From positions 1 to 36,061 of the IMG/VR virus record IMGVR_UViG_3300034759_000105: 36,061 nucleotides of DNA; one strand, given 5' to 3'. Of this stretch, positions 32,219 to 35,863 are shown piece after piece. Both the position numbers and the translations under genes were made by a program. This stretch comes from a virus. Within the stretch, counting starts at the first letter, position 1. The number at the start of each line of letters is the position of its first letter. Below the pieces are notes generated by a model that saw only the letters and a program-made list of their open reading frames with translations, was not told where the DNA came from and did not search any database.

Positions 32219-33085
32219 ATGAATATTTTTAAAAATATACTAGGTTTTAGGTCTGGGGTTCGGTGGAAAAAGTTAATTGCTACAGCTTATTATTTATTTA
32301 GCTTGCTTATACTTATATCGAGTGTTGAAACAGGAATAGTACTTCTTATCTTCCCATTTATAATATTCGGCCTCATAGACAAAATAAAGGCAAAGCGTAA
32401 CTCTAATCAGGCTACTCCTAAAGTAAAACAAATTGATAAGCCTAATGTCGCAACAGAAAGGCCAAAACAGCAGTCTGCTCCTGCACCTGTCTTAAATACA
32501 CAATCAGTAAATCACCGAATAAATATTAATACCAAAAAGTGGCTTAATGCTTGCAATGAATTTGTGGCTATCGACTTGGAAACAACTGGTCTTAATCCAA
32601 TAAACGATAAGATTATTGAAGTGGCCGCAGTAAAATTTAAAGATGGACAAATTATTGATAGATTTACAACTTTAATTAATCCAGAAATACATATACCATC
32701 AGGAATTACAAGAATAAACCATATAACAGATGAGATGGTTAAAGATGCTCCAGTATTAGCTGAAGTCATGCCATGTTTAGTGAATTTTATCGAAGATTCA
32801 ATCCTTGTTATGCATAATGCTTCTTTCGACTTAAAATTTTTAAAACATCATGCAATGAATTTTGGGCATGACATTAATAACTCATATATAGACACACTTC
32901 CCACTTGTAGAAACATATTCTCTGGACTTGAAAATTACAAATTACCTACTATTGCAAGCCATCTCGGTATATGTGGCGATTCTTTTCATAGAGCATGTAA
33001 TGATGCAGAAATATGTGGCCAAGTATTAATTAAATGTATTGAAACGGCAAAGGATAGAAGCAGTCAAGGAGCCAGTCTTATATGA
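32219..33085 (+). CDS. Membrane-anchored DEDDh 3'-5' exonuclease (DnaQ-like)
   Basis: The 288 residues begin with two membrane helices (LIATAYYLFSLLILISSV at about 19-36, GIVLLIFPFIIFGLI at about 39-53). A basic, Pro/Gln-rich linker (55-105) follows, then an exonuclease domain from residue 113. Exo I is FVAIDLETTG (Asp119, Glu121), Exo II is HNASFD (Asp204), Exo III is HRACNDA (His257, Asp262): the full DEDDh set. It should degrade DNA or RNA from 3' ends at the inner face of the membrane. Usual proofreading DnaQ subunits have no membrane anchor. Good AGGAGG site. It lies in the AT-rich accessory island. Confidence 0.82.
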   Translation: MNIFKNILGFRSGVRWKKLIATAYYLFSLLILISSVETGIVLLIFPFIIFGLIDKIKAKRNSNQATPKVKQIDKPNVATERPKQQSAPAPVLNTQSVNHRININTKKWLNACNEFVAIDLETTGLNPINDKIIEVAAVKFKDGQIIDRFTTLINPEIHIPSGITRINHITDEMVKDAPVLAEVMPCLVNFIEDSILVMHNASFDLKFLKHHAMNFGHDINNSYIDTLPTCRNIFSGLENYKLPTIASHLGICGDSFHRACNDAEICGQVLIKCIETAKDRSSQGASLI

Positions 33086-33159: not shown

Positions 33160-33912
33160 GTGCAAACCAAGCTGCCTTTAGTACATGTATATTGCGATGA
33201 AAGTTCGCAAAGTTGTAATAAATATTTAGTTATAGGCGGAATATGGATACCAGCTGAAAATGTCGGTAATATTGGCGCTAAGTTTATTGAATTTAGGAAT
33301 AATAATCATATGCTAAATGAACTAAAGTGGGGTAAAGTGTCTAATGGAAAGTTAAATGAATACAAAAAATTCATTGATGAGGTTTTCGACGGTATATATA
33401 AACGGTATTTAGCATATCGTTGCATAATTGTTAATATGGAACAATATGACAATAAAACATATAACAATGGAGATAAAGAGCTTGGCTTTTACAAGATTTA
33501 TTATCAACTACTGCTTCAAAATTGTATGCTAGGTCACAGATATATAATATATCCTGATGACAGGAAAAATTCATACAAACATAGACTTGAGGCGTTAAAA
33601 ATTATACTAAATAGAGGAATGCGCAAAAAATATGGGATCAACTACGATGCTATTAGAAATATTGAAGCACGTGATTCCCATAATGAAGATCTTATACAAG
33701 CGGTAGATATAATTACTGGTGCGATAGGATATAGATGGAATTGTAGACATTTGAACGATAACGCTAGCGCCGCAAAGATACAATTATCAGAATACATAGC
33801 ACAAAAAGCTGGACTTCAAACATTGGCTACATGCCATAAGAAAGGGGAACATGTTTATTTTAATATCTGGTATATGGACATGAGTAAATCCAATAAACGA
33901 AAAACAAAATAG
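33160..33912 (+). CDS. DUF3800-family protein, predicted RNase H-like nuclease
   Basis: This 250-residue protein has the DUF3800 signature: VHVYCDESSQSCNKYLVIGGIWI (Asp13, Glu14), ELKWGKVS, YIIYPDDRKN (Asp133, Asp134) and DSHNEDLIQAVDIITGAIGY (Asp177, Asp183). The spaced acidic residues suggest an RNase H-like nuclease, though the family is not characterised. Genes of this family occur in prophages and mobile elements, some with structured RNAs beside them. A strongly structured region starts within its stop codon here. The GTG start has GGAG 7 nt upstream. Confidence 0.8.
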   Translation: MQTKLPLVHVYCDESSQSCNKYLVIGGIWIPAENVGNIGAKFIEFRNNNHMLNELKWGKVSNGKLNEYKKFIDEVFDGIYKRYLAYRCIIVNMEQYDNKTYNNGDKELGFYKIYYQLLLQNCMLGHRYIIYPDDRKNSYKHRLEALKIILNRGMRKKYGINYDAIRNIEARDSHNEDLIQAVDIITGAIGYRWNCRHLNDNASAAKIQLSEYIAQKAGLQTLATCHKKGEHVYFNIWYMDMSKSNKRKTK

Positions 33913-34048
33913 CGCCTTGAGTCCTATTCTTTCGAATGCGCTGCACGGCTTGGTGCAGGTTTCGGATATCAATGGCGCTATCTCAATTACCTCTATAGCT
34001 AGGTACTTTACGTACACACGGCATGAAGCCGACTTTCGCCTATAGAGG
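33909..34048 (+). ncRNA. Candidate structured RNA downstream of the DUF3800 gene
   Basis: Two multi-stem elements lie in tandem. The first is closed by ATAGCGCC (33909-33916) with GGCGCTAT (33974-33981) and holds hairpins ATTC-TTTC-GAAT (33926-33937) and CTGCAC-GGCTTG-GTGCAG (33941-33958). The second is closed by CCTCTATAG (33990-33998) with CTATAGAGG (34040-34048) and holds GTAC-tttac-GTAC (34003-34015) and CGGC-ATGAA-GCCG (34019-34031). Each would form a three-way junction. The region has no ORF and is far more GC-rich and structured than its surroundings. DUF3800-associated RNA motifs have been described by comparative genomics; whether this is one of them I cannot check. Confidence 0.55.
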
Positions 34049-34251
34049 ACTTATATTTAATGTGTCAATATTATCTCTAGTTCATTTACATTATACGCTA
34101 TTTCGTAACTTTTAGTCAATGATTAAAATTTGGTAATTTAATATTGGGAGGATCTTGATATGCGAGGATACATGTAACGTAAGATAGCCTGAATAGTACC
34201 CACATATTAAGCGGTTTACACATAAACTAAATTATAGAAAGAAGGAAAAAG
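34049..34251. other. Intergenic AT-rich stretch with a remnant integrase start
   Basis: With the structured region, 33913-34251 is a 339-bp stretch without a credible gene. After the RNA-like part it is AT-rich and carries no ORF I would trust. It contains one copy of the 21-bp integrase start repeat at 34147-34167, which here leads into MRGYM and a stop. The GAAGGAAAAAG before 34252 is the ribosome site of the membrane protein. Confidence 0.6.
34147..34167 (+). repeat. 21-bp direct repeat, copy 1 (remnant of the integrase start)
   Basis: The 21 bp from GGAGGATC to TGCGAGG are identical to 34735-34755, which holds the ribosome site and first codons of the integrase. Similarity fades afterwards (ACATGTAACG against ACATACGAAA). 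In this copy the frame ends after five codons (MRGYM). Confidence 0.85.
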
Positions 34252-34746
34252 ATGAAGTTAACAAATTTACAGCGGATTATACTAGTTGTGTATGCCATCG
34301 TGATCATCAATATATGTATCTTCTTTGCGCCTAAATCATTCTTTGCGCGTTCGGATGGCGTTAATATAATACAACATATTGAATATTCGCCTGTGTGGCG
34401 TAATTCTCATTATTTTAGAACAAGGGCAATCAAGCAGAACGCATCACCACAAGATGTTAACAATGCTGGAGAATTGGATTGGTATATCCGCATTGATTAC
34501 TATCGCATGTTTGTAGAAATATTTGTTGCTACCGTTATTGCCAGTATATTATTCGTGCTCTCTATGTTCCCAAAAGAAAAACTCGCAAAAGTTAATGTGG
34601 ATGCAACACCTTTATCTCAGGTTACACAAAAGAAAAAGATACCGTGGTGGGGATGGATGTTAATATCATGGGCCATCTTCCCCGGAGCAGTTATTGTTAT
34701 TGCATGGATCGCTGATTTAATCTCAAAAGTAAAAGGAGGATCTTGA
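34252..34746 (+). CDS. Membrane protein between the integrase start repeats, 164 aa
   Basis: Three hydrophobic helices are visible: IILVVYAIVIINICIFF (about 9-25), FVEIFVATVIASILFVLSMF (about 87-106) and WWGWMLISWAIFPGAVIVIAWIADLI (about 132-157). Between the first two lies a soluble loop of about 55 residues (SDGVNIIQHIEYSPVWRNSHYFRTRAIKQNAS), and a short Lys-rich segment precedes the third. No family is recognised. The gene ends 1 bp before the integrase ATG and is flanked by the 21-bp repeat, as if inserted. It may be a superinfection-exclusion or conversion protein, which is a guess from place and topology. Confidence 0.65.
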   Translation: MKLTNLQRIILVVYAIVIINICIFFAPKSFFARSDGVNIIQHIEYSPVWRNSHYFRTRAIKQNASPQDVNNAGELDWYIRIDYYRMFVEIFVATVIASILFVLSMFPKEKLAKVNVDATPLSQVTQKKKIPWWGWMLISWAIFPGAVIVIAWIADLISKVKGGS

Positions 34747-34755
34747 TATGCGAGG
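34735..34755 (+). repeat. 21-bp direct repeat, copy 2 (integrase ribosome site and start)
   Basis: This copy supplies the GGAGG ribosome site and codons MRG of the integrase gene, and also the last codons and stop of the membrane protein gene. Copy 1 lies 588 bp upstream. Confidence 0.85.
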
Positions 34756-35863
34756 CCACATACGAAAAAGAGGATCGACTTACAGTATCGTCGTAGACGT
34801 CGGAAATGACGAAAATGGCAAGCGCAAGCAAAAATGGTACAGCGGCTACAAAACCAAAAAAGAAGCGGAGAAAGCATTGGCCGATATAATTGCCAAAATA
34901 GAAAAAGGTGAGTATTTTGAGCCGGAAAAGATGTCGTTGGCAACCTATTTAGACTACTGGTTGGGAAACTACGCTAAAACCAACGTAGCAGCAAGTACTT
35001 ATAAACGATACACTGAGTTTGCGGCTCATATAAAAACAAATTTAGGTAGCATCATGTTGCCGAAATTAAAGCCAGCGCATATCCAAAGCTTTTATTCAAC
35101 GCTATTGGAGCAAGGATTAAGCAAAAGCACCGTTTTAAAAGTACATCGAATGCTCCATCTAGCCTTGAAGCACGCTGTGAACTGGCAAATAATAATTTCT
35201 AATCCGGCCGATGCTGTAACACCACCCAGACCTGATAAAGTAGAAATGCATGTATGGGATATGAATACGGTTAACCAGTTTTTAAACGATGTCTCAGATG
35301 AGCCTATATACATGCCGGTCCTGTTAGCACTGCAAACGGGTATGAGAGAAGGCGAGATTTGCGGCCTCAAATGGGAAGATGTGAACTTAAAACAGGGTAC
35401 CTTGACGGTAAAGCAAGCATTGCAACGTATAAACGGTATACTTACTATAAAGGATACAAAGACGGCCAAATCGAAGCGAACGATAGCTCTGATGGATTAC
35501 ACTGTTCAAGCTCTTAAAGAGCATAAAAAGCAGCAGAATACGGTCAAGCTCATGATGGGTCCTGCAGCATATCATGACCAAGGGTTCGTCTGTGCGTGGG
35601 ACGATGGTAGACCCTATGATCCGCATTATGTTGGTGAAAAATTCACTGAACTAATCGATAAGTTAGACTATCCCAAAATACGTTTTCACGATCTCAGGCA
35701 CACACATGCTACCATGCTTCTACAGCAAGGCGTAAATCCTAAAATAGTGAGCGAGCGCCTCGGCCATAGCCAAGTCTCAATTACACTTGATACTTACAGT
35801 CATGTCTTGCCCAATATGCAAAAAGAAGCAATAACCAAATTAGACGAATTGTTTATAAAATAA
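34748..35863 (+). CDS. int: Tyrosine recombinase integrase
   Basis: The 371-residue protein has the three usual parts. Residues 1-55 are an arm-binding AP2-like domain (HIRKRGSTYSIVVDVGNDENGKRKQKWYSGYKTKKEAEKAL). Residues 62-155 are the SAM-like core-binding domain (LATYLDYWLGNYAKTNVAASTYKRY). Residues 165-365 are catalytic: Arg200 (TGMREGEICGLKW), Lys in TKTAKSKR (238-244), His314-x-x-Arg317 (HDLRHTH), His340 (LGHS) and nucleophile Tyr350 (LDTYSHV). It integrates and excises the phage. It is adjacent to the 3' end of a tRNA-Arg gene, its likely attachment site. Confidence 0.95.
   Translation: MRGHIRKRGSTYSIVVDVGNDENGKRKQKWYSGYKTKKEAEKALADIIAKIEKGEYFEPEKMSLATYLDYWLGNYAKTNVAASTYKRYTEFAAHIKTNLGSIMLPKLKPAHIQSFYSTLLEQGLSKSTVLKVHRMLHLALKHAVNWQIIISNPADAVTPPRPDKVEMHVWDMNTVNQFLNDVSDEPIYMPVLLALQTGMREGEICGLKWEDVNLKQGTLTVKQALQRINGILTIKDTKTAKSKRTIALMDYTVQALKEHKKQQNTVKLMMGPAAYHDQGFVCAWDDGRPYDPHYVGEKFTELIDKLDYPKIRFHDLRHTHATMLLQQGVNPKIVSERLGHSQVSITLDTYSHVLPNMQKEAITKLDELFIK

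Follow-up and report, generated by a model that had tools for sequence, protein, structure and literature searches.

In the prophage-like stretch of viral DNA analysed here (36,061 nt; the window), two structured elements next to a DUF3800 gene very probably make up one sRNA gene of about 185 nt, which lies on the minus strand and is convergent with DUF3800. Judged from their sequences, the elements are distinct, conserved RNA domains that share a single promoter-like site. The main new point is that the RNA takes the very position in which sister genes have a toxin-like RNase, and that the two never occur together. Rfam lists DUF3800-associated RNAs but assigns them no function, and no function is assigned to the DUF3800 protein either, which is found in phages, in defence islands and at Cas12a2 or VI-F loci. 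An RNA type missed by the Rfam model and an unlisted second domain are added here, with strand and gene limits fixed. A vague association of DUF3800 with RNA becomes testable in this way, as binding of the RNA to the nuclease and as blocking versus switching on. The features of the locus are as follows.

33160..33912, plus strand: DUF3800 gene, GTG start, 250 aa, predicted RNase HII-like nuclease
34090..34119, minus strand: promoter-like site of sigma70 type, TTGACT-18-TATAAT (11/12); predicted sRNA start near 34083
33986..34053, minus strand: element 2, the 5′ RNA domain, with a closing stem and two hairpins and the core GCGAAAGUCGGCU-N-CAUGCCGU...CCUAGC; not in Rfam
33907..33983, minus strand: element 1, the 3′ RNA domain, with a long stem, an invariant GAA / UA core and two hairpins; supported by model R1, covariation and G-U bias
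33900..33909, minus strand: U-rich 3′ end TTTTGTTTTT, terminator-like, directly past the closing stem and overlapping the region of the DUF3800 stop codon, as in homologues

The DUF3800 coding sequence (33160-33912, plus strand) matched PF12686 in Pfam (E = 1.2e-14) and the PADLOC profile PDC-M04A (E = 3.8e-45). For its AlphaFold model (pLDDT 91.8), the top PDB match was RNase HII, 1eke (Foldseek E = 1.6e-5; Z 11.8 over 169 residues, rmsd 6.2). Among the acidic residues D13-E14, D133 and D183, the first three were invariant and D183 nearly so in alignment A8. As judged by residue identity, this conservation fits the acidic set of RNase HII. The modelled protein is predicted to be an RNase HII-like nuclease with an RNase H fold, in which strand 1 carries DE and two more acidic residues are present. 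DUF3800 has been termed an RNase H-fold nuclease in publications (PMC10910872, PMC12669027), and Anantharaman 2013 (PMC3710099) predicted that the RNase H-fold domain of NamA/RlfA is likely an RNA-cleaving toxin.

The prophage-like character of the record is seen in an integrase gene (34748-35863) and a tRNA-Arg(CCT) gene (36030-35955, minus strand). The neighbours of DUF3800 are an RNase_T gene, an ORF without a Pfam match and the integrase gene. Comparison of the window DNA with phages and plasmids gave chance matches only. Just upstream of DUF3800, the stretch 32219-33085 encodes an N-terminally extended protein with a DNA polymerase epsilon-like RNase_T/DEDDh 3′-5′ exonuclease domain.

The closed stems of 8 and 9 bp that the earlier note had described, each around two smaller hairpins, were confirmed at 33909-33916/33974-33981 (element 1) and 33990-33998/34040-34048 (element 2). 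The stem of element 1 includes the TAG stop codon of DUF3800. That note also saw no ORF in the area, and none of at least 80 aa covers the two elements. Compared with dinucleotide shuffles, folding gave z = -3.78 (element 1) and -3.85 (element 2) on the plus strand, and -5.40 and -3.00 on the minus strand. The note had placed the elements after the DUF3800 gene. They are real and do adjoin it, but they are encoded on the minus strand. We assigned this strand from the closest relative of the window locus, where a minus-strand DUF3800-VII takes the position of element 2 (L022, see below), from promoter-like sites and U-runs in homologues, and from the pairing asymmetry. Minus-strand pairs included 57 G-U against 16 A-C, although part of this excess may be due to the alignment having been fitted to pairs.

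Given the promoter-like site at 34119-34090, a single transcript of about 185 nt would run through element 2 and element 1 to the U-run. The best promoter scores upstream of 22 homologous RNAs averaged 9.2, compared with 7.7 in shuffles. TTGACA-17-TATATT stands just before the RNA in L023, L028 and L112, and a U-run follows the closing stem in homologues when they are read on the minus strand. A Bacteroidota genome (L029) has TATCTTTG in the promoter position instead, which fits the Bacteroidota -7 element. The overlap between the RNA and the DUF3800 gene has a median of only 5 nt (range -6 to +32).

Element 1 was found beside DUF3800 genes in many phyla. In Moorella phage OR602863, whose DUF3800 protein is 39-40% identical, it lies right past the stop codon, and the inner sequences are the same while the closing stem is composed differently. 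A two-protein alignment scan of genome contigs yielded 80 loci, and in many of the closer ones the element came directly past the stop. A covariance model built from five other sequences with the window left out (R1) detected the window at 33983-33907 on the minus strand (E = 0.003 in 528 kb). Its true matches were all (14/14) directly 3′ of DUF3800 and on the opposite strand. A fifteenth match (L003; E = 6.5, 26 nt) was rejected as a chance match. A second model from 13 sequences (R2) detected the Moorella phage copy, which was outside its training set, with E = 2.9e-5. Exact patterns of the window's element 1 and element 2 gave no hit in viral contigs.

Covariation among homologues, a check named in the earlier note, was found in both elements. 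In the alignment of 24 distinct element 1 sequences, 92.4% of pair cells were paired, and both sides had changed in 30 of the 33 pairs. Cells changed on both sides numbered 202, compared with 58.7 in shuffles and 22-40 in slid controls; since this alignment was fitted to the model, the absolute covariation values lean upwards. At the inner end of the long stem (alignment A6), an unpaired GAA was present in all 24 sequences and UA in 23. The core hairpins number two in the window and three in L023-L029.

The same core, CGAA...UGUAGG with unpaired GAA and UA, occurs together with a long closing stem in DUF3800-VIII (RF03075), which is likewise convergent and directly 3′ at the DUF3800 stop. Moreover, R2 recognised the DUF3800-VIII members L158 and L161 (E = 0.0015-0.0017). 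From the shared core and this recognition, we conclude that element 1 is a relative of DUF3800-VIII with several hairpins, which escapes detection by the Rfam model. It differs in having two or three hairpins in 76-95 nt, whereas DUF3800-VIII has one core hairpin in about 64 nt, and its DUF3800 genes form a different subclade. The Rfam model of DUF3800-VIII requires 40.2 bits and left element 1 undetected. When the window was searched against Rfam at gathering scores, and its positions 33850-34260 at E <= 10, neither element had a match. The DUF3800-associated and HEARO models, with which the earlier note had suggested searching, also found nothing in the window.

Element 2 matched no Rfam family. 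Its core, GCGAAAGUCGGCU-N-CAUGCCGU, was found in three relatives (L157, L166 and L167), two of which have a DUF3800-VIII-type RNA in tandem with it. In the Bacillota genome L157, it precedes a DUF3800-VIII RNA beside another DUF3800. The other two are virus contigs and came from a degenerate element 2 pattern in viral contigs. In L166, the core precedes a DUF3800-VIII-like RNA that scores 29.7 bits, below the gathering score. In L167, element 2 stands alone at 253-322, about 70 nt past a tRNA gene, and is followed by a U-run; no DUF3800 match was found in this 7.1-kb contig. Among the four sequences, 98.4% of pair cells were paired and both sides had changed in five pairs. A third model (R3) scored the window's element 2 at 83.5 bits, with the window itself in the training set.

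The locus closest to that of the window (L022; 64-66% protein identity) is also in a prophage, with integrase and tRNA adjoining. It carries DUF3800-VII in the element 2 position, in tandem with element 1. DUF3800-VII (RF02967) resembles element 2 in its convergent 3′ position, but its model, which requires 36.2 bits, did not match element 2, and the core sequence differs. Thus the order of one domain followed by an element-1/VIII-type domain was seen in four lineages, with element 2 in the window, L157 and L166, and DUF3800-VII in L022. DUF3800-VII and DUF3800-VIII of Rfam share the same convergent position next to DUF3800. The suggestion in the earlier note of two different folds in tandem is borne out, in that two distinct, covarying, DUF3800-associated RNA domains are present.

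We then compared what lies downstream of related DUF3800 genes. Among 101 loci, 80 had a PBECR2-like gene, 20 had the RNA and none had both. The 20 RNA loci comprise 19 found by model and one (L095) that R2 misses and that was recognised by eye. The sole locus with neither partner (L017) is a truncated match. R2 found nothing at E <= 1 in 436 kb of protein-partner loci. Folding of the opposite strand 3′ of DUF3800 also separated the two groups, with a median z of -3.46 at RNA loci and -0.27 at protein-partner loci (Mann-Whitney P = 1.6e-8). On the DUF3800 tree, which was made by a quick method and has some long branches, RNA versus protein partner needed one change, compared with a mean of 19.3 in shuffles (0/500), and the RNA side had an SH-aLRT value of 82. 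The earlier note had counted homologous DUF3800 genes in the same context without the structures against its reading. The reading withstood this check, apart from the sister clade, which has a protein gene there instead.

In 299 evenly drawn Bacillota genomes, DUF3800 had the protein partner in L149, L151, L152 and L153, an RNA of element 1 type in L145-L147, and DUF3800-VIII in L154, L156-L159 and L161; L148, L155, L160, L162 and L164 were left unclassified. No DUF3800 locus in these genomes had both a protein partner and an RNA. In viral contigs, a first protein scan gave no match, and the A1 and A7 scans returned protein-partner loci only, plus L017.

The PBECR2-like partner gene corresponds to PADLOC PDC-M04B, and its DUF3800 to PDC-M04A. 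The PDC-M04 system (DUF3800 with a PBECR2-like protein), which includes the phage P1 pair rlfA-rlfB, has the same DUF3800 family as the window. It differs in that the PDC-M04B gene is absent downstream in the window and in all RNA-type loci, where the RNA occupies that place. In the AlphaFold model of the PBECR2-like protein (pLDDT 86.4), the closest structures were colicin D tRNase (Z 6.0) and toxins of the RelE/YafQ/BrnT type; the Z values are modest, though the list of matches is consistent. This exclusivity of RNA and protein next to the nuclease suggests that the RNA is the working partner of the nuclease, and we consider it likely that the sRNA is a partner of the DUF3800 protein.

The RNA was sometimes kept where the gene had decayed. 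An RNA-only search of 299 Bacillota genomes found six with the RNA, in which DUF3800 was intact in two, frameshifted in one, reduced to C-terminal remnants in two and not seen in one. An Ignavibacteriales genome (G007; L112, L113) has three element 1 copies with 0-3 differences in 95 positions, all in one loop. One copy adjoins DUF3800, with a type I methyltransferase gene on one side and psyrT/psyrA on the other; another lies by a 12-residue DUF3800 remnant, and the last has no DUF3800 trace. Over 95 nt, this last copy shares 100% of positions with one of the other two and 97% with the other. Its 40 nt upstream are 72% identical, with the promoter hexamers kept, while the flanks are about 40-53% identical. 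Such conservation suggests that the RNA itself is under selection and acts in trans. An RNA that outlasts its protein shows the asymmetry expected of an antitoxin, but small target size could explain part of it. An RNA of 90 nt offers mutations a smaller target than a gene of 750 nt does, which makes survival past gene decay weak evidence. A gene for a REP-associated tyrosine transposase is present in the interval of the G007 paralogous locus without DUF3800.

Neighbours of the loci included prophage integrases, type I and IIG RM systems, PsyrTA, cas6, Avs2-like genes, KAP-NTPase and HerA; some RNA-bearing loci (L023, L029, L038) had housekeeping neighbours. Of the 13 genomes or records that the element 1 model matched at E < 0.01, 12 contained a single copy.

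Of the three possibilities raised in the earlier note, the ribonucleoprotein unit is the one we favour, from the covarying DUF3800-associated RNAs and the predicted nuclease; a guide RNA or an mRNA-end element is unlikely. An autoregulated mRNA end is hard to reconcile with an RNA on the other strand that has a separate promoter-like site and only a short overlap with the gene. A mobile RNA-guided element would resemble HEARO / OMEGA systems, in which a nuclease also adjoins a structured RNA. However, the window has no IscB or TnpB, no HEARO match and no guide segment. The RNA extends from promoter to U-run without room for an outside guide, its loops are of a few bases, and it is nearly always in single copy.

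As a whole, we tentatively prefer to read the locus as a nuclease module of prophages and defence islands with an sRNA partner, which may restrain the nuclease in a manner like type III toxin-antitoxin (TA) systems, though this falls somewhat short of an even chance. The sRNA would work in trans as the dedicated partner of the RNase HII-like DUF3800 nuclease, filling the position held in the sister clade by a gene for an RNase of colicin-D/RelE fold. Less firmly, the RNA may bind the nuclease through the conserved GAA/UA core and may hold it inactive, to be released when a phage infects or the RNA is lost. The module would then consist of a protein toxin and an RNA antitoxin, working like a type III TA system with unrelated parts. 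Type III TA systems (ToxIN) also pair a nuclease with a structured RNA in prophage and defence contexts. Their toxin has the ToxN fold, which is MazF/Kid-like, and their RNAs are normally tandem repeats upstream in the same operon. The best structural matches of the window's nuclease are to RNase HII. The RNA of the window, in contrast, is no upstream repeat array but lies downstream of the nuclease gene, in convergent orientation and behind a promoter-like site of its own.

That the sRNA restrains rather than enables the nuclease is by itself a little less than an even call. Against restraint, the partner in the sister clade resembles an RNase toxin and not an antitoxin, and the logic may be that of two effectors or of an RNA cofactor. 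The main rival, which we hold to be rather unlikely, makes the sRNA an obligatory cofactor or scaffold that activates or directs DUF3800 as a defence RNP effector. It predicts the same anatomy and the same strict coupling of RNA and DUF3800, and it is at ease with a position otherwise taken by an RNase and by no antitoxin-like protein. DUF3800 proteins are also known to accompany the RNA-guided Cas12a2 and VI-F systems (PMC10910872, PMC12669027). The copies retained without an adjacent intact DUF3800 speak against a cofactor, as does the RNA itself, which has no variable guide segment between promoter and U-run and varies in short loops only.

The remaining readings seem less probable still. 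Convergent transcription meeting at the stop codon would suit a cis-antisense or transcription-interference regulator of the DUF3800 mRNA, but we regard this as improbable in view of the small and variable overlap, the conservation of structure and not of complementarity to the gene, and the copies kept without an intact DUF3800 alongside. It is about as improbable that the RNA serves the prophage as a decoy or anti-defence agent to block DUF3800-type nucleases, whether the host's or those of rival phages, with the adjacent DUF3800 only aiding its maintenance. Almost every RNA-clade gene from the DUF3800 searches has its own RNA, although a decoy would account for element 2 in the virus L167 without DUF3800, for the L166 elements with no DUF3800 in the available stretch, and for the DUF3800-VII of L022, which adjoins a DUF3800 of a different clade. 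A structure acting as DNA (a hairpin target, a transposon end or a REP-like repeat) is very improbable: closed stems and the three near-identical G007 copies, one of them near the transposase gene, would agree with it, but the G-U/A-C asymmetry, the promoter and U-run on one and the same strand, and the single copy in 12 of 13 genomes or records argue otherwise.

Taken further, the restraint reading would define a class of RNA-gated RNase HII-like nucleases, which we put forward as a possible but doubtful generalisation. The toxin-like RNase partner (colicin D/RelE fold) would have been swapped for a modular sRNA of interchangeable domains, with DUF3800-VII or element 2 followed by element 1 or VIII, giving a TA or defence system unrelated to ToxIN and spread by prophages and defence islands across many phyla.

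Several minor observations were made along the way. For the phage P1 gene rlfB (L142, 1477-2645), annotated as a replication protein, the profile of the PBECR2-like partner gave a match (E = 3e-11). The pair rlfA-rlfB therefore seems to consist of a DUF3800 and an RNase gene and not of replication genes. Both rlfA and rlfB are non-essential for P1 growth (PMC10695390). In the window, a 27-nt direct repeat (93%) at 34147-34173 and 34735-34761 contains the ribosome site and start of the integrase gene. Between the repeats lies a 164-aa ORF (34252-34746) that matches nothing in Pfam or PHROG. It looks as if it had been inserted, with the integrase start duplicated in the process. In L141, by eye, the DUF3800 gene and a DUF3800-VII RNA lie between the apparent hsdM and hsdS genes of a type I restriction system. 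Finally, in L148, L155 and L160 the strand opposite DUF3800 carries, on the 3′ side of the gene, closed-stem elements without a match to R2 or Rfam; more DUF3800-linked RNAs of unlisted types are therefore likely.
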